From assembly GCA_017649565.1 (NCBI GenBank), contig JAGCGO010000020.1:1-64000 (forward strand): DNA of 64,000 bases, written 5' to 3'. This document shows, in pieces, positions 52,037 to 64,000 of this stretch; positions within the stretch are counted from its first letter, which is position 1, and the number at the start of each line of letters is the position of its first letter. A program made the position numbers and the translations under genes. A model generated the notes under the pieces. That model was not told the DNA's origin, searched no databases, and saw only the letters and a program-made list of their open reading frames with translations. The DNA is from Fibrobacter sp. Its GTDB lineage: Bacteria > Fibrobacterota > Fibrobacteria > Fibrobacterales > Fibrobacteraceae.

Positions 52037-55000
52037 TTACTTTCGTCTTGAACGTTTGAAGCCGAAGGTCTTTGTCGCATCGTCGGTAGTCTTGGAGACA
52101 TCGCCCTGTTTATATACGGAGCCGTCATCCCTGTCGGTCTCGACTGTCGAAACGTACGTGGCCTTCGATTCAAAGTCAATCTTCGCAATGTACGCACCCG
52201 TGCCGATCATTCGTCCGCTATTGCTTCTGGGAGCCCCATCACGAGCCACCCATTCCATGTTCACGCGCAGCACGCCATCTTCCGAAATTTTGTCCAAACC
52301 GACATCCTTCATGTTTATGTGCACATCCTGTTTGGCAATGAACTGTCCGATGTTGTCAAAGACGTTCATAGTGAACTTGATTTCGAAATCAAAAAGCGGG
52401 TTGCCCTGATCGTCAGTCTGCAGAGCCGAGGGCATCGTTATTTCCACGATGAACTGCGGCCCGGCATGCTTGTAGATATCCGTGTTTAGGACAACTCCCG
52501 TTGTCGTGAGTTCGCCTCCATTGAGGTTCATGAGTGATTCCGTCCCGTCCATGTTGACAATAGTCGCTCGGAACATTTCGTCATCTTGGACCGGAGCGCC
52601 TATGTAGGGTTCTTCGTTCGGGAATTTTGTCACCTTGTTCGCCAGCGTCACGCGGAATTTCGTCTTCTCAGTGGAACCGTCTACGATTACCCAGGGATTC
52701 TGCGCTGTGGGGAAATTGCCCGCATTATCCTTGTAACGAGAGAGGGACGCAAGCGGGACGAGCCTGATATAGTCGCCTACACGAACCGCGCCTTCGGAAT
52801 CTTCCGAGTAGCCGTAAGTCGCCTTCACTTCGTTATTCATCTGTACAAACCCGGGTTTCAGGTAGATGTCATCCTGCGAACCGCGCTTTCTTTCGACATA
52901 TTCAAGAGTAGGATTGTCAATGGTAGCAAGCGGTTCGGACATCGTGGCTTCAAGGATTTCCATGTCTCGCAAGGATTTCTTTGACGCCCTCATTATAACA
53001 GGCGGGCACTTGTCGACCACGAAGTAGAACTTGTCGAAAAATCCTCCTTCGGGCCCGAGCCGCGGCGTCACGTGACCATACCCGTCATACGGACCACTGG
53101 TCGCACCATACGGGAACCCGTTCGATGTCGAAAACGGAATGGTGATGATGGATACCGAATCGTTCGCCAGGGTGGAATCGTTGGCGACAGATACCGTATG
53201 TTTCCAGTCGGCCGGGAAGAAACTCTTCACGATGTTCTTCATGCCCCATTCCACGACAAAGCTGTCGAGCATGTCCTGGGGGCGAAGCTTTCTCTCGAAC
53301 TTCAGATAGAGCTCGTCAACATAACCGTCACCTTCGTTGTCGCGCATTTCGGCAAGCGTTATGGGAACTGGCTTCGGGGTCTCCGCAATTTTCACGCCCT
53401 GGGCACAGGGCGATGCCGGGTTGAGTTCGTTGAAAGATTCGTCCGTGATGTTCATGCCGCTCTTGATGCTAGCAATGCCGCCCACGGGAATGTAGCTGCC
53501 GTTGTCGTTCCCGGTCACTACGAACAGCCAGTTCTTGCCGCCGTTGCGGGGAGTCGCCTGGCCCAATACCGAGATGTGCTCGCCGGAGACGCCTTCGATG
53601 GCGAGGGGCCATGATCCCGGAGATGCGAGCAGCACGGGTTCAGTAAAGGCGATCATCAGCGTATCTTCGGGGGAACGCGGAGCGAGATTCTCGAGAATGG
53701 TCACGCTCAGGAGCTGCGGTACGATACCGTCAGTAATCTTGACAATCTCTCGACCCGTTTCGCCCTTGGTCGTGATAAATACGGACGCAGTCCCGCTAGG
53801 TGCTGCCGTAGCGGGCACACCGATTCCCTCAAGCGGAATACTGACTTCGTCGAGGCCCAGAACCGGCTGCGGCACAGAAAGCGTCACGGTATCGCTCATG
53901 CCTTCCAAAAACACGCGGATGCTGTCGAAAGAATAATTCTCATCTAAAATGTTGCTGAATTGTACCGTCAGTTTGTCCGCCACATTATCGCAGTCGCTGT
54001 CCTGCGCGAGCACCTGTTTCGGCATCGGATAGTTGGATTCGGCGTAGAAGGCTGTTATCCTGCTGTAGTCTTCCTCGTCTTCCGGGTCCTGGTACTCGAC
54101 GTAAATAGTATCGCCCGGGAAGAACGAAATCTCGTTCGCCCCGCGTTTGTCCTTTGACGTGGGCACGGCGGTAATCAGTTCGACACTGCGGAACAGCCCA
54201 TCCCCAATAGATTCCATCTTGACATTCAGGGTATCCTGCTTCTTGCCGTTGATGACATTGACCGTAATCGTACCCTTTGTATTCGCCTTGTCCTTGTCGG
54301 TCAGGTAGATATAGAATTTCTGTTTCGAATCCGGATCCACCAAGCCATTCTTGCCGACAACGTTTCCGTCCTTGTCTTTTACCGCCAGGACGCCGTCGGT
54401 CAAGTTCGGGCGATTGAATTCGACATAATAGTTGCGGTTTTCAAAAGCGCAGCCGCCGTTCTCGGTACATTCGTCACATTCGGGATCGGGCCCGGCAAAT
54501 ACCGTAATGTCCACCTTGTTGCTCCCGACTTTCATCTTCACCGGAATATTCAAATCCCACAGATCGGTTGCAATATTGTAGTGGGCAACATTGTAATCCA
54601 GCGGGATGCGCTCGCCGTTCGCCCAAATCTGGGTAATGAAGCCACCCTCGGTAATATGGGCGTTGCCCTTCACGTACATGGTCTTGCTGACTTGATTCAC
54701 CTCCACATGGCTACCGTTAGACACGTTGAAGGGAGCTTCAAAAGCGACATCCAGCTTGTAATTGGCGCGCTTGGTCGCCATTTCCGACTTGGACGGGCTA
54801 TACCCCCACACGAATTCATCCTTGCGGTAAACCGACACGTAAGGATTTATAGGCGCAAGATCGTCGTCACCGAAGTCCTTTTTCTCGCAAGGCAGACCTC
54901 CGAAGTCCGCATATTCCCCGTCAGCCTTGGAATGCACTTGCCAGCTCCAGTCTCCCGGATTCAGCGCCAGCTTGTCCCCCGCCTGCGATTCCCAGGTATC

Positions 55001-58000
55001 TCCGTGGTCCTTGCAATAGAATTTCTTTTTGGGAGTATCGTTCATCAAGTCCAGGTGCGGTTCCCATTCACTTCTTCTATCGAACAGCACGTCAATCCTA
55101 AGCCTGCTCGTGGACTTGATTTCGGTGGAGCCCAACGGGATGGGGAAATACCATTGCCAGGTTCCATCGGTCGGGTCATAGGTGTCATCGATTTTCTTGG
55201 GGAATGTCTTACGGAACAGACCGTCCAACTCCGCATTGGTTTCATCGGAACAGGGCTCGTTGAAAGCCGCTTCACTGTACGCCTGGCAGATATCGCGGCG
55301 GATACCCACGTCATAATAGATATCGTCCGTGCCGCGCATGTAAACGCGTATCGTCAGGCTGTCGAACGGACGCACCTCGTTATTGTAGACATTGATTTCA
55401 AGGCCCGGCATGGGTGACCAAACGTACTGGGACATTCTGACTTCAAAGTCGTACTGCATCACAGGCGTCCTAAACTTTAACGGTTGGCCATTCTCGTTGA
55501 CATTTGTATAGGATCCATTGCTTTCCACGGCGTAATAGTAGGTGGTTCTTTCCTTGAGGCCGCCAATCTTTACATAGTGGAACATGGTCGGGATTCCCGA
55601 AATGTCGGCATTGCCGGCACCGGAATTGAAGGCATAATCCTTTGCATCCGTGTGCGGGATAGTGTCCCAATAGACTTTCGATTCGTATTCCCCGTTCGGG
55701 GTGTACCACATGATTTCCGCGGAATCCGCGGTCACGTTGCAGACGGTCACGTTTTGGATATTCGCGTCTTCGATCATGCCGAGAGTCGTAAACGTGAACG
55801 GAGTCATCGTGCTATCTACGGCCCATTTTTTTGTCGTGTTGCCGCTTCTCGGGTTAGCCGCTGTGACGTAGAAATAATACGTCGTACCGGGCAGAAGGTC
55901 CCGCAGCACAATCTCGTGTTGTTTTTTTCCCGTTTCGGAAGCTACGACAGACGGGTTCTTGACCGATTCCGCCGTATCGAGCGATATGTACACATTGCCG
56001 CCTATATCAAGTTTCACGACATAGATAGCCGAATCCATGCTTACATGGCGCTTTTCCACGGTTATAGAGGGAGCGCGATTCAGGTCCTCGGACTTTGCGA
56101 GAATGACCGTTGCCGGCAGGAAATTGGATACGGCATCGATGCAAGTATTTTCCGTAAGTTGCCAGTTGTTAAAATGAACGGAAAGGTCGTTTTCCGTCGA
56201 TGGCGGCTGCCCAGGGCCGAGTCCCCCAACGGGTGGATGGTACCTGTACGAAGTTACGAGCCCGGCAACATTCTTACCTTCGGGATTAGAGGCACGGTGA
56301 TGCGGATGCGAGTGATTCTTGTCGCCGACACCATAAATGAGCGATACATCCCAGGGGTTCATTCCGAGGAAATAGTTCATGTGCGAAACGGCAAGATCTA
56401 GAATTTCTTCCGATTTCCAATTTTGCGCAACACCGGTCTGTGGCATAGTGACGTTTTCCAAGTCCTTGGTCACGTCGTAATAGGCAAGCAGTTCAAAAAT
56501 ATTGGACGCTTCATATTTGGTCCACCATTGCGTGGTTTTGACAGGATTGGTAAGCCCCCAAACGGGATCGTAGCTAATTGTTGCGCCACCCCAGCTCGCC
56601 TGTCCTGCAGGGAGATCGATTGTCCTTGTTCCTCCGGTCATGACCGTAGCAAGATTTGCGGACATGGTAAAGGCGACATCCTCGATATAGATCATTCTCT
56701 GTTCATTGGAAATTCCGTAGGCATCCGCCTTGGCCTGGGTTTCAAGAATCAACTTATAGAAAGCATAAAGGGTGGTCGTGAATACGCTAGCCCAATCGGA
56801 AGCGGCCATGGCCTTCAGGAAAGAGGCTTCCTCGTGGGCGAACCATCCGCCGTTAAACATTCCAGCACCTTTCTTGTCGCTATTGATGAAATCCTTTTTG
56901 GTCTGCCCCTTGGCCAAAGACGATTCTTCAACAGCATCATTTAAATAGGTCTTGTCTGCCGTCGCATAGAAAAGGCAAATTGCAGCAAGAGCCATTTCGT
57001 CATGGTATCTTGAACCACCACTGTAGGCCGGCGAATTCGTGAGCATTTTCTTGGCCTTGCCATAATCGTAAAGAGCCTTGGCCACAACTAGGCTTTTATT
57101 GGCAAAAGCGGCGTCGTATTTAGCCCAGAGCTTGGATATAATGGCCAATCCTGCGGCAAAGTCCCCAGAAGCGGTACTTCCTAGTTCCGCACCTCCAGCT
57201 TGACCGGGACGATCGTCGCTTCTCAAAATTCTGCTTGTGGGGCCTCCTCGATCTTCCACCGTGTTGTCCTGATATTCCGGCGAGCCCCACCATCCGTGAT
57301 CTTTTCCTATTTCGCCCACAGAAACAGGCATAGCGGAAACGACGCCCTTGGCGGCATCGTAAGCCTTTATAACGTATTCGGCACCGAACTTGGCTTCCCT
57401 GAGCATGTCAGGGACATCGTCGGTATTGTTGATTTCGCTTTGTTTAAACGCATAGTTGTCCTGGTCGCGATCCTCGTAAGCCGCGGCGGTAACGGCAAGT
57501 TGGGCAAAGCTGTAAGAGATTGTCTGACTTTCTTTAAGATGGTCGCCACAGTCGTACCAGCCACCGGTCATATCCACGCTGGCAAGGGAACCGTCTTTTA
57601 GGTGGCTTGGCGGATGGAACCAGGATTCGGAATTACCGCTGCGGTTAATCCCATAGAACTTGAGCACGGCATCGCGAAGCATGGAGTAAACCTTGTCGCT
57701 AATGATAAAAGTGGACGAATATTCATTTCCGACCTTTATACGCAACCTTTCGTTCTCGGGCAGTCCATGGGGAAGCGAACCCCTTTTCAAGGCTCCTGAC
57801 GGCCCCTTTTTCGTTGTCGTGTAACGGGTGTCCCCGCCATCTGTGACCTGGGCATTGTTAGATGCTTTTATTGTCAGCGATGACGATACGGAATTCGAAA
57901 GCGTTTCCGAAAAACTCCCGTTTCCAACGACTTCGCCCTTCTCGTTGACGACTTCAAAATCTGTTGCCGACCCGACATACAGTACGTACTTTTGGGGGTC

Positions 58001-58303
58001 TTGCGGACGATACCCGGCCTGGTTTACACGTATGGGCGACATCTGAATCAACATGGCATCAATGAACGCCTGATTCAAGGAGTCAGGAATTATGTTGTTA
58101 GGAGAATACGCGGCAGGCGTATTGATGTCCGGCAAAGAATTGCGCTTGGGACCCGGCGTAAAATTTGTATTGAATACCGTGGAATCCCATGTCAGCGGCC
58201 AAACAGGCCGAATCAAGTCGTACGGAGTCGGCAAATCAAGATCAGCCGCCACCGACGCCACTGCGAAAAATAAAAAAGCTATAAGTCCTTTTCTAAAAGA
58301 CAT
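52037..58303 (-). CDS. Giant secreted GH9 cellulase with FN3-like and repeat modules
   Basis: This 2088-residue exported protein (signal peptide MSFRKGLIAFLFFAVASVAA) has an Ig-like CelD_N-type domain at about 90-200 (IRVNQAGYRPQDPQKYVLYV) and a GH9 catalytic domain at about 205-735. GH9 features are GGWYDCGDH (247-255, catalytic Asp pair), HSHPHHR (664-670) and a C-terminal NNWQLTENT with Glu718 as the likely acid. Two FN3-like modules follow, then about 1100 residues of beta-rich modules. Two of these share a pattern of the form DxxxDxxxDxLxxxF (DSDCDNVADKLTVQF and DNEGDGYVDELYLKF). The end GTGAYIAKIDFES plus a basic tail (KTFGFKRSRRK) looks like a cell-surface or secretion signal. AGGAG lies 11 nt before the ATG. 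An endoglucanase or cellodextrin hydrolase acting on cellulose is likely. Confidence 0.88.
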   Translation of the reverse strand: MSFRKGLIAFLFFAVASVAADLDLPTPYDLIRPVWPLTWDSTVFNTNFTPGPKRNSLPDINTPAAYSPNNIIPDSLNQAFIDAMLIQMSPIRVNQAGYRPQDPQKYVLYVGSATDFEVVNEKGEVVGNGSFSETLSNSVSSSLTIKASNNAQVTDGGDTRYTTTKKGPSGALKRGSLPHGLPENERLRIKVGNEYSSTFIISDKVYSMLRDAVLKFYGINRSGNSESWFHPPSHLKDGSLASVDMTGGWYDCGDHLKESQTISYSFAQLAVTAAAYEDRDQDNYAFKQSEINNTDDVPDMLREAKFGAEYVIKAYDAAKGVVSAMPVSVGEIGKDHGWWGSPEYQDNTVEDRGGPTSRILRSDDRPGQAGGAELGSTASGDFAAGLAIISKLWAKYDAAFANKSLVVAKALYDYGKAKKMLTNSPAYSGGSRYHDEMALAAICLFYATADKTYLNDAVEESSLAKGQTKKDFINSDKKGAGMFNGGWFAHEEASFLKAMAASDWASVFTTTLYAFYKLILETQAKADAYGISNEQRMIYIEDVAFTMSANLATVMTGGTRTIDLPAGQASWGGATISYDPVWGLTNPVKTTQWWTKYEASNIFELLAYYDVTKDLENVTMPQTGVAQNWKSEEILDLAVSHMNYFLGMNPWDVSLIYGVGDKNHSHPHHRASNPEGKNVAGLVTSYRYHPPVGGLGPGQPPSTENDLSVHFNNWQLTENTCIDAVSNFLPATVILAKSEDLNRAPSITVEKRHVSMDSAIYVVKLDIGGNVYISLDTAESVKNPSVVASETGKKQHEIVLRDLLPGTTYYFYVTAANPRSGNTTKKWAVDSTMTPFTFTTLGMIEDANIQNVTVCNVTADSAEIMWYTPNGEYESKVYWDTIPHTDAKDYAFNSGAGNADISGIPTMFHYVKIGGLKERTTYYYAVESNGSYTNVNENGQPLKFRTPVMQYDFEVRMSQYVWSPMPGLEINVYNNEVRPFDSLTIRVYMRGTDDIYYDVGIRRDICQAYSEAAFNEPCSDETNAELDGLFRKTFPKKIDDTYDPTDGTWQWYFPIPLGSTEIKSTSRLRIDVLFDRRSEWEPHLDLMNDTPKKKFYCKDHGDTWESQAGDKLALNPGDWSWQVHSKADGEYADFGGLPCEKKDFGDDDLAPINPYVSVYRKDEFVWGYSPSKSEMATKRANYKLDVAFEAPFNVSNGSHVEVNQVSKTMYVKGNAHITEGGFITQIWANGERIPLDYNVAHYNIATDLWDLNIPVKMKVGSNKVDITVFAGPDPECDECTENGGCAFENRNYYVEFNRPNLTDGVLAVKDKDGNVVGKNGLVDPDSKQKFYIYLTDKDKANTKGTITVNVINGKKQDTLNVKMESIGDGLFRSVELITAVPTSKDKRGANEISFFPGDTIYVEYQDPEDEEDYSRITAFYAESNYPMPKQVLAQDSDCDNVADKLTVQFSNILDENYSFDSIRVFLEGMSDTVTLSVPQPVLGLDEVSIPLEGIGVPATAAPSGTASVFITTKGETGREIVKITDGIVPQLLSVTILENLAPRSPEDTLMIAFTEPVLLASPGSWPLAIEGVSGEHISVLGQATPRNGGKNWLFVVTGNDNGSYIPVGGIASIKSGMNITDESFNELNPASPCAQGVKIAETPKPVPITLAEMRDNEGDGYVDELYLKFERKLRPQDMLDSFVVEWGMKNIVKSFFPADWKHTVSVANDSTLANDSVSIITIPFSTSNGFPYGATSGPYDGYGHVTPRLGPEGGFFDKFYFVVDKCPPVIMRASKKSLRDMEILEATMSEPLATIDNPTLEYVERKRGSQDDIYLKPGFVQMNNEVKATYGYSEDSEGAVRVGDYIRLVPLASLSRYKDNAGNFPTAQNPWVIVDGSTEKTKFRVTLANKVTKFPNEEPYIGAPVQDDEMFRATIVNMDGTESLMNLNGGELTTTGVVLNTDIYKHAGPQFIVEITMPSALQTDDQGNPLFDFEIKFTMNVFDNIGQFIAKQDVHINMKDVGLDKISEDGVLRVNMEWVARDGAPRSNSGRMIGTGAYIAKIDFESKATYVSTVETDRDDGSVYKQGDVSKTTDDATKTFGFKRSRRK

Positions 58304-58429
58304 AAAGCAACGCTCCTACTAATCCCCAATAAGCTAAAATTTACAGTCAAAATTTTGGACAAGCGCAAAATAACTTTTCCGTAACAAAAAAAATGTTCCC
58401 TAGATGTTCTCCGACACCCCACCCCCTCG

Positions 58430-58896
58430 TACATGATACAGGGGCGCGGGGCTCCAGGCTCGAGGTTCGAGGCACGAGCAACGAGTTATGAGCAGTGAGT
58501 AATGAGCGATGAGGCTCTAGGCTCGAGGCGCGAGCAGTGAGGTATGAGGCTTCGAGAGAATAGAGAATAGAGACTAGAGAATAGTGAAAAGAATCACGCA
58601 CTTCGTGCGTCAATAACAGACGGCGAAGCCATGATATTTCTTCCTAGCCTCTAGACCCTAGCCTCTAGACCCTTATCCTAGAGATTGCTTCAGGGCTATT
58701 CGCCCTTCGCAATGACAAATCCCTAGATTCTAGATCCTGTTCCCTCCTAACCACCAACCACTGTCTACTTTTTCTCTCGTCTTTCGTCTGTAGCCGCGTA
58801 GCGGCGTTCTCCTCATAGAGGATAACTCTACTAAGGCACTAAAGTGCCTAGTATCGTTTATCTCGTCTTTCCCTAGCCCCTAGATCCTATCCCCTC
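58430..58896. repeat. Mosaic of degenerate word repeats in a 610-bp gene-free gap
   Basis: No gene is supported in 58304-58914. The tract is a mosaic of words: GGCTCGAGGTTCGAGGCACG near 58448, GAGCAGTGAGTAATGAGCGA near 58489, AGAGAATAGAGAATAGAG near 58556, CCTAGCCTCTAGACCCTAGC near 58646, CTCTCGTCTTTCGTCTG near 58773, and CCCTAGCCCCTAGATCCTA at 58871. Small hairpins such as CACGCACTTCGTGCGT also occur. The last word is the exact reverse complement of 167-185. Confidence 0.8.
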
Positions 58897-58901
58897 TTTT
58901 C

Positions 58902-58909
58902 TATCTTTC
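58902..58909 (+). promoter_or_regulatory. TAnnTTTG-like box, 5 nt before ATG
   Basis: TATCTTTC is separated from the ATG at 58915 by CCGCT. There is no ribosome site. Confidence 0.5.
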
Positions 58910-58914
58910 CCGCT

Positions 58915-59766
58915 ATGAAGAAGATCGCATTTCAGGGCCGTCGCGGGGCCTACAGCGAAAGCGCCGCCTATCACCTGTTCGGAAACGATATCGAAGTCAT
59001 TCCGATGGATACCTTCGAGCAGATTTTCCAGGGCATCGAGACCGGCGCCGTAGACGGCGGAGCCATTCCCATAGAGAACTCCACCGCGGGTTCCATCTAC
59101 GACAACTACGATTTGCTGTTCAAGTGGCGCCATCCCATCGTGGGCGAAGTCAAGTTGCAGATTTCGCATTCGCTCTGTGCACTCCCCGGGACAAAACTCG
59201 AGGACATCAAGGAAGTGCTGAGCCACCCGCAGGGCCTTGCGCAGTGCAGCCGATTTTTCGGGCGCAACCCGAAAATCAGGAGCACCGCGTTCTACGATAC
59301 CGCAGGCAGTGCCGAGGAGGTCGCAAAGCGTGGCGATAAAACCGTAGGCGCGATTGCGAGCGCCTACGCCGGCAAGTTCTACGGCCTGGATATTCTGGCC
59401 GAAGGCATAGAGAACTTGCCGGGGGTGAACTTCACCCGGTTTTACGCCATCCAGAAGACGGCGAACCCACTCCCCGAAGAAGGCACAATCAAGACGACGC
59501 TCCTCTTTATGCTGAGCGATTCTGGGAAGTCCGGCGCCCTGCACGCAGCACTCGGCTGCTTTGCCAAGCGCGACCTGAACCTCACCCGCATCGAGAGCCG
59601 CCCACACCCCGACCGTCCGTGGGAATACATCTTCCACCTTTCGTTCGAAGGGAGCCCGAAGGACGAAGCCGTCATCGACGCGCTCAAGGAACTGCAGACC
59701 TACTGCGACTTCGTGTACCGTCTCGGGAGTTTCCGCGAAGGCACGACGGAGAAGTTGAGTTATTAA
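58915..59766 (+). CDS. pheA: Prephenate dehydratase
   Basis: This 283-residue enzyme converts prephenate to phenylpyruvate in phenylalanine synthesis. The catalytic domain shows KIAFQGRRGAYSESAA, GAIPIENSTAGSI and the conserved TRF motif (VNFTRFYAI). A C-terminal ACT domain (LLFMLSDSGKSGALHAAL, then LTRIESRPHPDRPWEYIF) is the usual phenylalanine-binding regulatory part. There is no fused chorismate mutase, as in Bacteroidetes and archaea. rph follows 32 nt later. Confidence 0.93.
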   Translation: MKKIAFQGRRGAYSESAAYHLFGNDIEVIPMDTFEQIFQGIETGAVDGGAIPIENSTAGSIYDNYDLLFKWRHPIVGEVKLQISHSLCALPGTKLEDIKEVLSHPQGLAQCSRFFGRNPKIRSTAFYDTAGSAEEVAKRGDKTVGAIASAYAGKFYGLDILAEGIENLPGVNFTRFYAIQKTANPLPEEGTIKTTLLFMLSDSGKSGALHAALGCFAKRDLNLTRIESRPHPDRPWEYIFHLSFEGSPKDEAVIDALKELQTYCDFVYRLGSFREGTTEKLSY

Positions 59767-59798
59767 TTGATGATGGATGATTGATAATTGGAGCAATT

Positions 59799-60524
59799 AT
59801 GGCTTACGAACGCACTGACAGAAAGTTTGACGAATACCGCAACCTCAAGATGACCACCGGCTTTATTTCCAGTGCCGACGGTTCCGTGCTCATCGAGATG
59901 GGGCGCACCCGTGTCATCTGCAACGCAACACTCCTCCCGAAAGTCCCCGACTGGCTCGCCGGCCGCGGTACCGGATGGATTACCGCCGAATACAGCCTGC
60001 TCCCGCAGAGCACGGGCAAGCGCGTGGAACGCGAGCGCAAGGGCGCGAGCGGCCGTACGCAAGAAATCCAGCGCCTGGTAGGCCGCTCGCTTCGCGGCGC
60101 AGCCGACCTTGCTGCCCTCGGCGAGAATGCCATCGTGGTCGACTGCGACGTGATCGAAGCCGACGGTGGCACGCGTACCGCGAGCATCATCGGCGGTTTC
60201 GTGGCGTTAGCGATTGCCCTCAAGAAAATCAAGGAACGCCTCGGCATCACGCAGCAGATATTGAAACACGGCATCACCGCCATCTCGGTAGGCGTCGTCG
60301 ATGGCAAGCCGCTCTGCGACCTCTGCTACGTGGAAGACTCCGCCGCCGACGTGGACATGAACGTCGTTATGCAAGATGCCAAGAACTTCATCGAAGTGCA
60401 AGGTACCGGCGAACACGCAAGCTTTGACCGCAATATGCTAAACACGCTCCTCGACTTGGGCGAGAACGCGTGTAAAGACATATTCAAAAAACAGATGGAA
60501 CTGATCGGCGGCGAACTTCCCTAG
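59799..60524 (+). CDS. rph: Ribonuclease PH
   Basis: This 241-residue phosphorolytic 3'-5' exoribonuclease trims tRNA precursors. It has MTTGFISSADGSVLIEMGRTRVICNA, the phosphate-site RGTGWITAEYSLLP, GRTQEIQRLVGRSLR and DCDVIEADGGTRTASIIGG. All conserved blocks look complete. GGAG lies 6 nt before the ATG at 59799; the linker from pheA is the word-like TGATGATGGATGATTGATAA. Both genes probably share a transcript. Confidence 0.95.
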   Translation: MAYERTDRKFDEYRNLKMTTGFISSADGSVLIEMGRTRVICNATLLPKVPDWLAGRGTGWITAEYSLLPQSTGKRVERERKGASGRTQEIQRLVGRSLRGAADLAALGENAIVVDCDVIEADGGTRTASIIGGFVALAIALKKIKERLGITQQILKHGITAISVGVVDGKPLCDLCYVEDSAADVDMNVVMQDAKNFIEVQGTGEHASFDRNMLNTLLDLGENACKDIFKKQMELIGGELP

Positions 60525-60547
60525 TCCGCCGAAACCAATTCCAGACT

Positions 60548-61966
60548 CTAATTATTTTTCAGGGACCCTAGCCCCACGATTTTGAACTCGCCTTCGGTTC
60601 CCGCAACGCCCTGGAATACAAACAGCAGCGACGCCACATGGGACGCATCGCCTGTTTCAAATTCGTCCCATTCCACGCACCTCGTCGTCAAACTGTCGTT
60701 ACTCGGCAAAGTAACCTTGGGAGATTGAAGAAGGGTGGAAGGATCCTCGAACGCGGCACTGTTCATCACGACATCGACGTTCAACGAAGACAAGTATCTC
60801 ACGCACAAACCGTCCCAGCTCGTGATATCGCCTGTTTTCATCGACCCGCCATTATCGTCCCTGTTGACAATGCTAAAGCCAACGCCGGCAAATCCCTCGC
60901 TTTCGAAATTCAGCGAGCCACAGACTCCACCGCAGTAATCGATAATCGGGCCGAGGGATTTCGTATCATAAGCATCGCCCTTGGGCATGGGCCAAACAAT
61001 CCTTGACGATTCCGAGTCGACCGTATCTTCGATAGAGTACCAGTACCCGCCCGTGGAAGATTCGTCGAACAGTTTCGTCTCAACGCGATACATGTAGCTT
61101 GATCCAAGCCAGAGGTTCTCTGCGGCGGAAGCAGGGTATGTTGTCTCGCCTTTCCCGACAGACGAAGAAGAAGGCGGCGTCTCCTCCACGGACGAAGAAG
61201 AGGATTTCTTTTCGGACGAAGATGACGATTTCTTCATGGACGACGATGACGGCGGATTTTCCTGTTGCCGGACAATATCCGTATAGGAACCAACACCCTT
61301 GATGTTAAAGGAACCATCCTGCTTTTCCTCGCTCCTGAATTCAAAAAGGATAGCACCGAGTTTTTTCACGGCGGGCTCGCTAGCGCCCTTCACGTGAGCT
61401 TGCTTGAAATCTTCCCATTTCGCGCAATGCGTGCTGAACTGCTTCACCTTCGGGAATTCTACATAAGGTTCATCCTCGGTTCCGTCTTCCGTACCGCTCC
61501 TGAATTTCATATTCATGGCCAGTTCAGATTTATAAGTCACGCAGAGTCCGTTCCACGCCGATGCATCCAGCGTCGATTTTCCTTTTCCGAGTGTGAATCC
61601 GATACCTGCGCTCACGGGCTTCGAAGATTTTTCAAACTTCACCGTCCCGCACAAGCCGCCACAAGAATCTATGACCGCCGCCATGTCATCCGCAGAAAGT
61701 TCCGCATTTTCCGTTCCCGAAAATACCACACGTGCGCCCTTGTTTTCCACTGAATCGCCATAGGTGAACCAGTATCCAAGATTTTCATCCCCAACAACCT
61801 GACGAGAGTCGGTAAAAGACCACAAATCGTAGCTATCCGGAGTTTCGACCTCAAATGCAGTTACTGAATTTTCCTCTTCTGTGACACCCGCCGTATTCTC
61901 TTCGGAGCATGCAAGAAAGTAAAACAAAAAAGCAACCATCAAAAGGGAGCAAAGGGGTCTCATCAT
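60548..61966 (-). CDS. Two-domain secreted lipoprotein with poly-Ser linker
   Basis: This 472-residue lipoprotein (leader MMRPLCSLLMVAFLFYFLAC) has two related beta-sandwich-like domains, about residues 40-215 and 290-470, joined by a Ser/Lys-rich linker (SSSSMKKSSSSSEKK). Each domain shows a WYTYGD-like start (GYWFTYGD, GYWYSIED), CGGLCG, WNGLCVTY / WDGLCVRY and a CxxWDEF end, which recalls carbohydrate-binding family 11-like modules; this is an inference. GGAGGAG precedes the ATG, 1 nt after the stop of the TIGR02147-type regulator, so the two form an operon. The second domain is nearly identical to that of the paralogue at 63002. Confidence 0.8.
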   Translation of the reverse strand: MMRPLCSLLMVAFLFYFLACSEENTAGVTEEENSVTAFEVETPDSYDLWSFTDSRQVVGDENLGYWFTYGDSVENKGARVVFSGTENAELSADDMAAVIDSCGGLCGTVKFEKSSKPVSAGIGFTLGKGKSTLDASAWNGLCVTYKSELAMNMKFRSGTEDGTEDEPYVEFPKVKQFSTHCAKWEDFKQAHVKGASEPAVKKLGAILFEFRSEEKQDGSFNIKGVGSYTDIVRQQENPPSSSSMKKSSSSSEKKSSSSSVEETPPSSSSVGKGETTYPASAAENLWLGSSYMYRVETKLFDESSTGGYWYSIEDTVDSESSRIVWPMPKGDAYDTKSLGPIIDYCGGVCGSLNFESEGFAGVGFSIVNRDDNGGSMKTGDITSWDGLCVRYLSSLNVDVVMNSAAFEDPSTLLQSPKVTLPSNDSLTTRCVEWDEFETGDASHVASLLFVFQGVAGTEGEFKIVGLGSLKNN

Positions 61967-61967
61967 T

Positions 61968-62783
61968 TCACTTCTCCTCCCACGTCAGTGGGAACAACTG
62001 TAAATTCAATCTGTAGACTCGTTCAGTACCGCGGCTGTTCAAGGCAATGCGGGCAATCTTCTTTCTACACGCTTCCAGTTCCTGCAAGATTTTCTTATAA
62101 TCCCCATCCGAAATACCCATCGTCAGGCCGGAAAAATTCCTCTCGGAAGGGGGAAACTTGTCAATAGCGTCTTGCGCAAAGGCAGCCATTTTTCGATGCA
62201 TAGAACGCAGGGCCACCGGCATCACCGCCGAGGACCCCTTCACGTGACCGTCCGCCTGAACATACGAATCGCCCACTTTCTTAAGCAGGCCGACTTTTAC
62301 CATAAAGTCTAGCGATTCTCGAACATCGGCCGCCGAGACTTCGTGACAGCAACGTTTTGCAATATCGAGAGGTTTCGCACCGCGCATGGCCGGGGCAAGT
62401 TCTCTCACGACAGGATGGACCCAGGATTCAAAATACCTGAACGCCTCGCCGTCGACAATCTTTACCTTGTTTGTCTTCGCGAGTTCCAGCATGGACTCGA
62501 AAGCCTTTTTCTTTTCCAGGTCGCTTTCAGCATGGCAATACGCGACCATGCTTTTGAAATAATCCAGTTCGAACCCCGCCAGGTGAAGCGCGGCTCCCAC
62601 ATTCTCTGCACCCGCCAGAGATAGGCGGCTTTTGCCCTCACAGACCAACTTCAAGTACGTAGGCGACGTAAACCCCGCAGCACGCGCAAATTCACGCCAT
62701 GAAAACGACGAGACACGCTTGCGCTCGTCATAATAGTCTTGCATATAGCGCCGATAGTCCTGATACTCAGTAATCGGTTTCAT
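61968..62783 (-). CDS. TIGR02147-family regulator-like protein
   Basis: This protein of about 271 residues matches the TIGR02147 (Fsuc_second) family first described from Fibrobacter succinogenes: MKPITEYQDYRRYMQDYYDE, an HTH-like FSWREFARAAGFTSPTYLKLV, then VSAADVRESLDFMVKVGLLKK and LTMGISDGDYKKILQELEA. It is cytoplasmic and probably DNA-binding; its target is unknown. The start at 62783 fits the family; TATATTCA ends 5 nt before it. In-frame alternatives are 62789 and 62807. It is immediately followed by the lipoprotein gene, so it may control or sense it. Confidence 0.85.
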   Translation of the reverse strand: MKPITEYQDYRRYMQDYYDERKRVSSFSWREFARAAGFTSPTYLKLVCEGKSRLSLAGAENVGAALHLAGFELDYFKSMVAYCHAESDLEKKKAFESMLELAKTNKVKIVDGEAFRYFESWVHPVVRELAPAMRGAKPLDIAKRCCHEVSAADVRESLDFMVKVGLLKKVGDSYVQADGHVKGSSAVMPVALRSMHRKMAAFAQDAIDKFPPSERNFSGLTMGISDGDYKKILQELEACRKKIARIALNSRGTERVYRLNLQLFPLTWEEK

Positions 62784-62925
62784 ACCCATGAATATACAAT
62801 TTTCCAAGGAAAAAATTTAATCTGTGATACAATTTGTTTAAAATTTCAAAAATAACACCGGAAAAGTTTATTGATGAAAAATTTTACATCTCCATGATAC
62901 AGGTGTTTAAATTCATCTAAAAGTT

Positions 62926-62962
62926 CAAAAAGAACCGGCAAGGGACAAGGCATCCCCTGCCG
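62926..62962 (-). terminator. Terminator of the 63002 lipoprotein gene
   Basis: On the minus strand, CGGCAGGGGA (62962-62953) and TCCCTTGCCG (62945-62936) form a 10-bp stem with a 7-nt loop, followed by GTTCTTTTTG. The rest of 62784-62925 is AT-rich and holds only the promoter of the regulator gene. Confidence 0.8.
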
Positions 62963-63001
62963 ATTCACCTCCTACCCCCAGCTCTTTTTCAGGAGGGGCA
63001 T

Positions 63002-64000
63002 TTAATTATTCGCCATGGTTCCAAGTCCCACGATATTGAAGTTGCCTTCGGTTCCCACACCGCCCTGGGCAATGAACAGCAGCGATGTCACATGGGTCGG
63101 GGCGCTATCGCCGAATTCATTCCATTCCAAGCACTTCGTCGTCAAGCCAGCGCTACTCGGCAAAGTTGCCGTGGGAGACTGAAGGAGGGTAGAGACATCT
63201 TCATAAGCAGCACTGTTCATCACGACATCAAGATTCAACGAAGACGAGTATTTCACGCACAGGCCGCCCCAACTCGTGATATCGCCCGGATTCATCGATC
63301 CGCCATTATCGTCCCTGTTGACAATGCTAAAGCCAACACCGGCAAATCCCTTGCTTTCGAAATTCAACGTGCCACAGAGTCCACCGCAGTAATCAATAAT
63401 CGGGCCGAGGGATTCCGCATCATAAGCATCGCCCTTGGACACGGGCCAAACAATCCTTGACGGTTCCGAAGCGTCCGTATCTTCGATAGAGTACCAGTAC
63501 CCGCCCGTCTCAGTTGCGTCGAACAGGTTTGTCTCAACGCGATACATGTAGTCCGATCCAAGCCAGAGGTTCTCGGCGACGGCAGCGGAATTTTCCTGAC
63601 CAAGAGAAGACAAACCGGAATTTTCAATGGCGTTCAAGTCAACGATGCACGCTCCATCGGCAGAATTCTTTGCGACAGAAGCTATCCTGAAATTCACGTC
63701 TATGTCCGTAGCGCTTTTCATTACGAACTTTACGACGGAGATTGCTCCAGCAAGCGCACTGTTTGTGGCTCCGACATTCGACGAGACGTTGGCGAATTCA
63801 TCCCAGGCAATACATCTTGTGAACATCTTGTCGCTGCCTTCCAAATCGGCACTAAGGACGGTTTCATTTCCATTGTCCAATTCCAGGGTCATATCATGGT
63901 CAGAAGCATAGGTAACGCAAAGTCCGTTCCAGGCGCTGATATCGGCTGCGATAGGAGCAGCCCCATTGCCGCTGGGCTGTTCCCCGGCAACGTTAAAGCC
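63002..64000 (-). CDS. Two-domain lipoprotein paralogue (5' end outside window)
   Basis: This gene has no start in the window; the frame is open to base 64000. The visible 332 residues hold the end of a first domain (SAWNGLCVTYASDHDM, CIAWDEF) and a complete second domain. The second domain is nearly identical to that of the 60548 gene (AENLWLGSDYMYRVET, IDYCGGLCGTLNFES, SIVNRDDNGGSM). Near residue 140 the poly-Ser linker is replaced by ENSGLSSLGQENSAAV. An ATG at 63892 lies inside the first domain and is not the start. It points to a recent duplication or conversion of the second domain. Confidence 0.78.
   Translation of the reverse strand, partial: GFNVAGEQPSGNGAAPIAADISAWNGLCVTYASDHDMTLELDNGNETVLSADLEGSDKMFTRCIAWDEFANVSSNVGATNSALAGAISVVKFVMKSATDIDVNFRIASVAKNSADGACIVDLNAIENSGLSSLGQENSAAVAENLWLGSDYMYRVETNLFDATETGGYWYSIEDTDASEPSRIVWPVSKGDAYDAESLGPIIDYCGGLCGTLNFESKGFAGVGFSIVNRDDNGGSMNPGDITSWGGLCVKYSSSLNLDVVMNSAAYEDVSTLLQSPTATLPSSAGLTTKCLEWNEFGDSAPTHVTSLLFIAQGGVGTEGNFNIVGLGTMANN

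Follow-up and report, generated by a model that had tools for sequence, protein, structure and literature searches.

TIGR02147 regulators and tagged exported lipoproteins as probable autoregulated surface-protein cassettes in Fibrobacter

What does a cytoplasmic regulator do when its gene runs almost directly into that of a surface lipoprotein? This question is raised by 64,000 nt of Fibrobacter sp. (assembly GCA_017649565.1, contig JAGCGO010000020.1, positions 1–64,000; hereafter the window), which carries on its minus strand a TIGR02147/DUF4423 regulator gene (61968–62783) followed by a lipoprotein gene (60548–61966). The regulator comprises 271 aa; its open frame extends to 62807, and the gene model begins at the ATG of MKPITEY. 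The stop codon of the regulator ends at position 61968 and the ATG of the 472-aa lipoprotein lies at 61966, which confirms the 1-nt gap described in a first-pass annotation made from the DNA letters alone. We propose that the two genes probably form one of a family of self-regulating surface-protein cassettes that operate in parallel, in which each regulator would bind its own two-box promoter while its partner is made in step and exported.

The first-pass annotation treated regulator and lipoprotein as one unit, and the pairing holds genome-wide and across phyla. Signal peptides and lipoproteins were called throughout by simple motif rules rather than by a trained predictor. The source genome encodes 36 TIGR02147 proteins, 35 of them complete, and every complete gene has a lipoprotein gene directly downstream on the same strand, mostly at an offset of −20 to +18 nt; the exception in spacing, on contig C80, has a longest partner frame beginning at −55, within which an internal ATG at −4 yields a lipoprotein (L046). 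Among other genes in 464 kb of control sequence from the same genome, only 12 of 350 have a lipoprotein directly downstream (Fisher p about 1e-39), so that the adjacency check proposed in the first-pass annotation came out far above chance. Pairing recurs in 28/29 cases in each of two complete-grade relatives (G001 and G055) and in 27/30 in two further genomes combined (G007 and G037). With all loci pooled, an exported partner accompanies 164 of the 180 distinct regulators, the commonest offset being the −4 of an ATGA overlap (71/164). Paired contigs include those labelled Bacteriovoracaceae, Oligoflexia, Myxococcales, Bdellovibrionales and Chitinispirillaceae, and on a Bdellovibrio plasmid the regulator gene overlaps a secreted-protein gene by four bases. 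Lipoproteins are common in the source genome (38 lipoprotein-like proteins among 351 control-region genes), which might have produced such neighbours by accident; however, the excess over controls and the conservation in several bacterial groups leave chance adjacency with practically no probability.

Expansion of the family in Fibrobacter, also suggested at first pass, is evident: alongside the 36 copies here, every same-genus genome sampled has at least 16, with 16 to 39 per sampled Fibrobacter genome, and within the phylum Fibrobacterota 54 of 61 genomes are positive, against none of 14 control genomes. Searches of phages and viral contigs returned no relatives; a Bdellovibrio protein used alone as query against genome contigs also found none, whereas a mixed alignment succeeded.

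The window regulator scores 296.9 bits against TIGR02147 (cut-off 50; positions 1–270 of 272) and 102 bits against PF14394 (DUF4423; cut-off 30; E 3.6e-29), and no part of it is transmembrane. An AlphaFold2 model (predicted local distance difference test, pLDDT, 89; alignment of 85 sequences) starts at the N-terminus with five helices, which are followed by a helical middle, a winged helix and long C-terminal helices. The helix-turn-helix (HTH)-like character assigned at first pass thus resolves into a predicted XRE-like HTH at about residues 29–67, with recognition helix SPTYLKLVCEG, and a predicted winged helix at about 139–180. Foldseek returned partial matches only, to XRE-type proteins (3vk0; HTH probability 0.9–1.0), lambda-repressor-like folds and, for the middle part, MarR winged helices; a family-wide profile search of Protein Data Bank (PDB) sequences gave nothing convincing. 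The modelled protein therefore resembles XRE and MarR-type one-component regulators in its HTH, its winged helix and its apparently autoregulator-like behaviour, but differs in that no structure matches it over its full length, one chain holds two DNA-binding-like domains and its exported partner is fixed. Among 26 main-clade paralogues, the most conserved segments are the recognition helix and a C-terminal VYRLNLQLFPL. Judged from sequence, the window regulator is very probably a DNA-binding autoregulator.

The candidate operator lies in its own promoter. Comparisons made within Fibrobacter genomes revealed TTTGTATCAT directly ahead of a TATTGAC −35 element upstream of many TIGR02147 genes, an arrangement first seen by eye and then counted against controls; a motif search of upstream DNA by Gibbs sampling was dominated by promoter elements and was set aside. 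TTGTAT[CT][AC] occurs upstream of 12 of 35 TIGR02147 genes versus 1 of 325 other genes (p 1e-12), and 8 of the 12 genome-wide TTTGTATCAY sites lie no more than 160 bp upstream of a TIGR02147 gene. In the window, the proximal box TGTATCAC (62824–62831, minus strand) lies beside the −35 region, its 5′ end about 48 nt before the ATG, and the distal box TGTATCAT (62894–62901, minus strand) lies 70 bp further upstream. All 13 orthologues inspected retain the proximal box, as GTATCA[TC] at the same position, and six (L225, L226, L227, L230, L234 and L235) retain the 70-bp pair. A putative −10 hexamer, TATATT (62791–62796, minus strand), assigned from consensus match and conservation, lies so close to the ATG that the regulator transcript would be nearly leaderless. 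Promoters of the LKLVC, KVVC and LKYVC recognition-helix classes likewise have the −10 adjoining the ATG so closely that many regulator mRNAs should be leaderless.

Box sequence varies with the recognition helix. Across 122 Fibrobacter regulators the table of helix against box is nearly diagonal, with off-diagonal counts near zero: LKLVC goes with TGTATCA in 27/54, [MI]KVVC with TGT[TA]GCA in 10/11 and LKYVC with a TTCT box in 9/9, while the small classes LK[MT]VC, [IM]QLVC and YNDIV each have their own box in 3/3. A held-out test on 30 loci from two genomes found the cognate box in 5 of 12 classed regulators and a non-cognate box in none (p 0.03). Two helices not previously seen, LQLVC and LQYVC, are accompanied by TGTATAGT and ATATTCT, respectively, as a residue-wise reading of the helix predicts.

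Tandem architecture also recurs. Thirty regulators have two direct box copies, spaced by 70 bp in 14, 72 bp in five and 92 bp in four. Paired TGTATCAY boxes 68–93 bp apart occur at 18 sites in five genomes, of which 15 precede TIGR02147 genes and one lies elsewhere; a reversed control pattern gave none in the same genomes. The remaining two precede the second lipoprotein gene, here and in G086. This gene, which the first-pass annotation had correctly placed just upstream of the regulator as encoding a protein of the same type, occupies 63002–64000 (minus strand) inside the window and starts at contig position 64441, beyond it; its product shares 49% identity over 381 aa with the paired lipoprotein, and it has no regulator gene of its own. 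Its promoter, outside the window, carries boxes at C32:64566 and 64636, again 70 bp apart. Given the matching promoters, the window regulator and the second lipoprotein probably form one regulon, with the regulator probably controlling both lipoproteins through the same two boxes at equal spacing. A single TGTATCAT at 58433–58440 lies about 130 bp upstream of the start of a gene for a 2088-aa secreted protein resembling glycoside hydrolase family 9 (52037–58303, minus strand); as the box is single and the 8-mer count in 64 kb is about the chance level, this candidate target was set aside.

What do the partners have in common? When 36 lipoproteins are aligned, the lipid cysteine and two glycines are the only conserved positions, and two similar regulators can be paired with bodies that hardly resemble each other (in one case, similarity 0.81 for the regulators versus 0.09 for the bodies). 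Domains are varied: Fib_succ_major occurs in 11 of 36 scanned, carboxypeptidase regulatory-like domains in 10, and CBM_4_9, laminin G and pectate lyase domains in single partners, while the CGGxCG type of the window occurs in no more than a few of 35. From 164 partners, Gibbs sampling nevertheless recovered a common 9-residue tag, G-[GTA]-[GTA]-[TS]-[ED]-[TV]-[GTE]-N-[GTP], which contains one of the two conserved glycines and starts at a median of 8 residues past the lipid cysteine or signal-peptide cleavage point. Its leave-one-out score has a median of 12 bits and reaches at least 6 bits in 85% of partners, compared with 0 of 37 other lipoproteins of the source genome (area under the curve 0.97 for partners versus control lipoproteins). 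In the paired lipoprotein, whose n-region, hydrophobic core and lipobox cysteine (FLAC) are present (MMRPLCSLLMVAFLFYFLAC), the tag is AGVTEEENS (residues 26–34; 61865–61891, minus strand; 11.8 bits); it was not detected in the second lipoprotein, which scores 1.3 bits. Versions such as GTDTGNP, GTSVGNP and GGVDVGNG occur in Bdellovibrionota and Myxococcota, and Pfam recognised nothing in four partners encoded on Bdellovibrio- and Myxococcus-like contigs. The codons of the tag vary freely, which rules out a DNA-level origin and makes it a protein-level constraint. Seven Fibrobacterota partners (L060, L072, L082, L084, L166, L174 and L177) have an unusual lipobox, with Arg, Gln or His right before the cysteine (for example, FLVRCS and FICQCG).

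The computations support the pairing, the tag, the operator code and the operator architecture. Together these suggest a cassette comprising a cytoplasmic DNA-binding regulator, with its XRE-like HTH and DUF4423, and then a tagged exported lipoprotein, probably translationally coupled to it. We infer that the protein itself binds the box beside the −35 and also the other copy, at a distance of about 70 or about 92 bp upstream; the lipoprotein partner would be synthesised in step with the regulator and exported; the likely output would be the choice of surface proteins on display. Because paralogues differ in recognition helix and matching box, each cassette, or small group of cassettes, would be independently autoregulated. 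The proximal box stands at a class II activator position in a window promoter lacking a good −35, which favours positive feedback and hence a bistable on/off choice of surface protein; control would then be positive. Several observations weigh against this account. Helix classes and boxes were derived from the very data that they describe, orthologues do not count as independent cases, and the held-out set is small; in the 85 bp scanned, the box is missing from half of the LKLVC regulators and from all LKYVS regulators; and divergent Bdellovibrionota members are less often paired (7/15 below 230 bits versus 69/73 at 230 bits or above). In some promoters (the C75 group), inverted boxes span the −35/−10 spacer, an arrangement more like repression, which suggests that control is negative in at least some copies.

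The tag admits other explanations of what the cassettes do. It could be a mere envelope sorting or processing signal for this class of surface proteins, read by some other machinery, the regulator being an ordinary local autoregulator without contact with its partner. Lipoprotein sorting signals (LES, Lol) are located just past the lipid cysteine, which is where the tag lies, and we regard this explanation as a real, if lesser, possibility; however, the tag is absent from the 37 other lipoproteins of the source genome and also occurs, in Bacteriovoracaceae, on proteins cleaved by signal peptidase I, for which lipoprotein sorting is not needed. Its occurrence in both kinds of exported protein, in several bacterial groups, implies that the tag follows the regulator and not one anchoring route. 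This distribution would suit a regulator that reads the tag, with or without the signal peptide, while its partner is still in the cytoplasm, so that the operon senses lipoprotein export. The tight gene overlap would bring both proteins together during synthesis; the export signal and the short tag are the only features common to all partners; and regulator similarity tracks the partner N-terminus over the body (partial r 0.32 versus 0.17, all modules), although within the source genome alone the N-terminal partial correlation is weak (0.15) and smaller than that of the body. In the monomer model, no secondary structure is predicted for VYQLNxQLFP, the most conserved regulator segment past the HTH, which also speaks for this reading, but the segment may be just a dimer interface. 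Such pre-export feedback seems rather unlikely to us, and it is unlikely that a tag-reading regulatory system extends across several bacterial groups, with dozens of parallel cassettes each reporting on, and setting, the display of one surface protein.

Alternatively, the surface lipoprotein might bind polysaccharide and the regulator respond to it, as in the substrate-sensing switch suggested at first pass. The paired lipoprotein carries two CGGxCG...WxGLC domains (61262–61867, approximate limits, and 60551–61129, both minus strand) separated by a Ser-rich linker, the second a predicted beta-sandwich with a weakly CBM11-like fold. The CGGxCG domain model is of low confidence (mean pLDDT 58.7, four sequences); its best PDB neighbours are carbohydrate-binding modules (CBMs), namely CBM11, represented by the Clostridium thermocellum Lic26A-Cel5E module (1v0a, 6r31; probability 0.99–1.00), followed by CBM30, CBM4 and CBM29. 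These matches reach E 2e-3 at best, with TM scores of 0.3–0.4 (for CBM11, 0.33–0.42 at about 12% identity), and the paired lipoprotein matches no Pfam family up to E 1, hence no CBM profile. The same CGGxCG domain recurs in a secreted protein with an apparent type IX secretion tail (L085:2884–3849), encoded divergently beside a gene for a GH5-like, probable cellulase. This neighbour, the CBM11-like fold and the CBM_4_9, laminin G or pectate lyase domains of some partners speak for sugar sensing; on the other side, the regulator has no transmembrane part, no transducer is visible and most partners, including the four without any Pfam match, have no recognisable sugar-binding domain. Carbohydrate binding by the two window lipoproteins, judged from the model, is therefore plausible and, with it, a role in substrate contact; it is not a general family trait, the partner domains being many and different. 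A substrate-sensing pair appears quite unlikely: of the switch proposed at first pass, surface display remains a fair name, while no route from surface protein to regulator is visible. We retain the autoregulated cassette as the preferred reading.

Some relatives depart from the common layout. Regulators of an ISRVM recognition-helix subclass (L264, L297, L323 and L329, from four Fibrobacter genomes) have no detected lipoprotein partner and share an upstream sequence like CTGGACAACG; these are possibly stand-alone regulators. Divergent relatives in Bdellovibrionota-type genomes (L109, L122, L144, L202, L203 and L215) lie upstream of secreted-protein genes, several of whose products have another Gly-rich N-terminal motif (GxGGGGD, GNGG), and possibly represent a second branch of the system. 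Beside the window cassette, a prephenate dehydratase-like and then an RNase PH-like gene (identified by eye; 58915–60524, plus strand) converge on the lipoprotein gene as ordinary housekeeping neighbours, and an Rfam scan of 58000–64000 gave no match.

Known systems offer partial precedents. RRNPP regulators such as PrgX and TraA work with lipoprotein-derived peptide pheromones and so also tie a cytoplasmic regulator to lipoprotein secretion signals; here, in contrast, a full lipoprotein is encoded in cis and the conserved part lies past the signal peptide. The regulator model has no C-terminal tetratricopeptide-repeat peptide-binding domain, and no RRNPP protein is among the Foldseek matches listed. 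The window regulator exceeds both curated cut-offs of TIGR02147 (Fsuc_second) and PF14394, but the descriptions of these families carry no function, exported partner, tag or operator code. Fib_succ_major (FISUMP, TIGR02145), a domain of Fibrobacteres surface proteins for which a cellulose-binding or cohesin-like role was earlier proposed (PMC4704652), occurs in 11 of the 36 scanned lipoproteins, as noted above, but is absent from the window lipoproteins, and no link between it and TIGR02147 regulators was found in the literature searched. No paper found in the open-licence literature names TIGR02147, CHP02147, Fsuc_second or FISUMP; for DUF4423, the Bdellovibrio protein Bd3700 is reported among proteins up-regulated during growth in prey. 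The pairing, tag and operator code, for which that literature yielded no description, appear new, in agreement with the first-pass view that the function was undescribed.

For Fibrobacter, the F. succinogenes S85 genome paper left the transcriptional control of cellulases as an unanswered question, with few regulators near cellulases (PMC3079729), and in a proteome study 40 of 49 lipoproteins were less abundant on cellulose; this scarcity of regulators and the drop in lipoproteins make the TIGR02147 family worth testing. The cassette reading would provide a function and a testable operator code for a set of paralogues that so far lacked both. As the operators are readable and each regulator is tied to a surface lipoprotein, the code predicts which surface proteins would be switched together, and the recurrence of this pairing in predatory and social bacteria (Bdellovibrio- and Myxococcus-like) suggests a general surface-control device.

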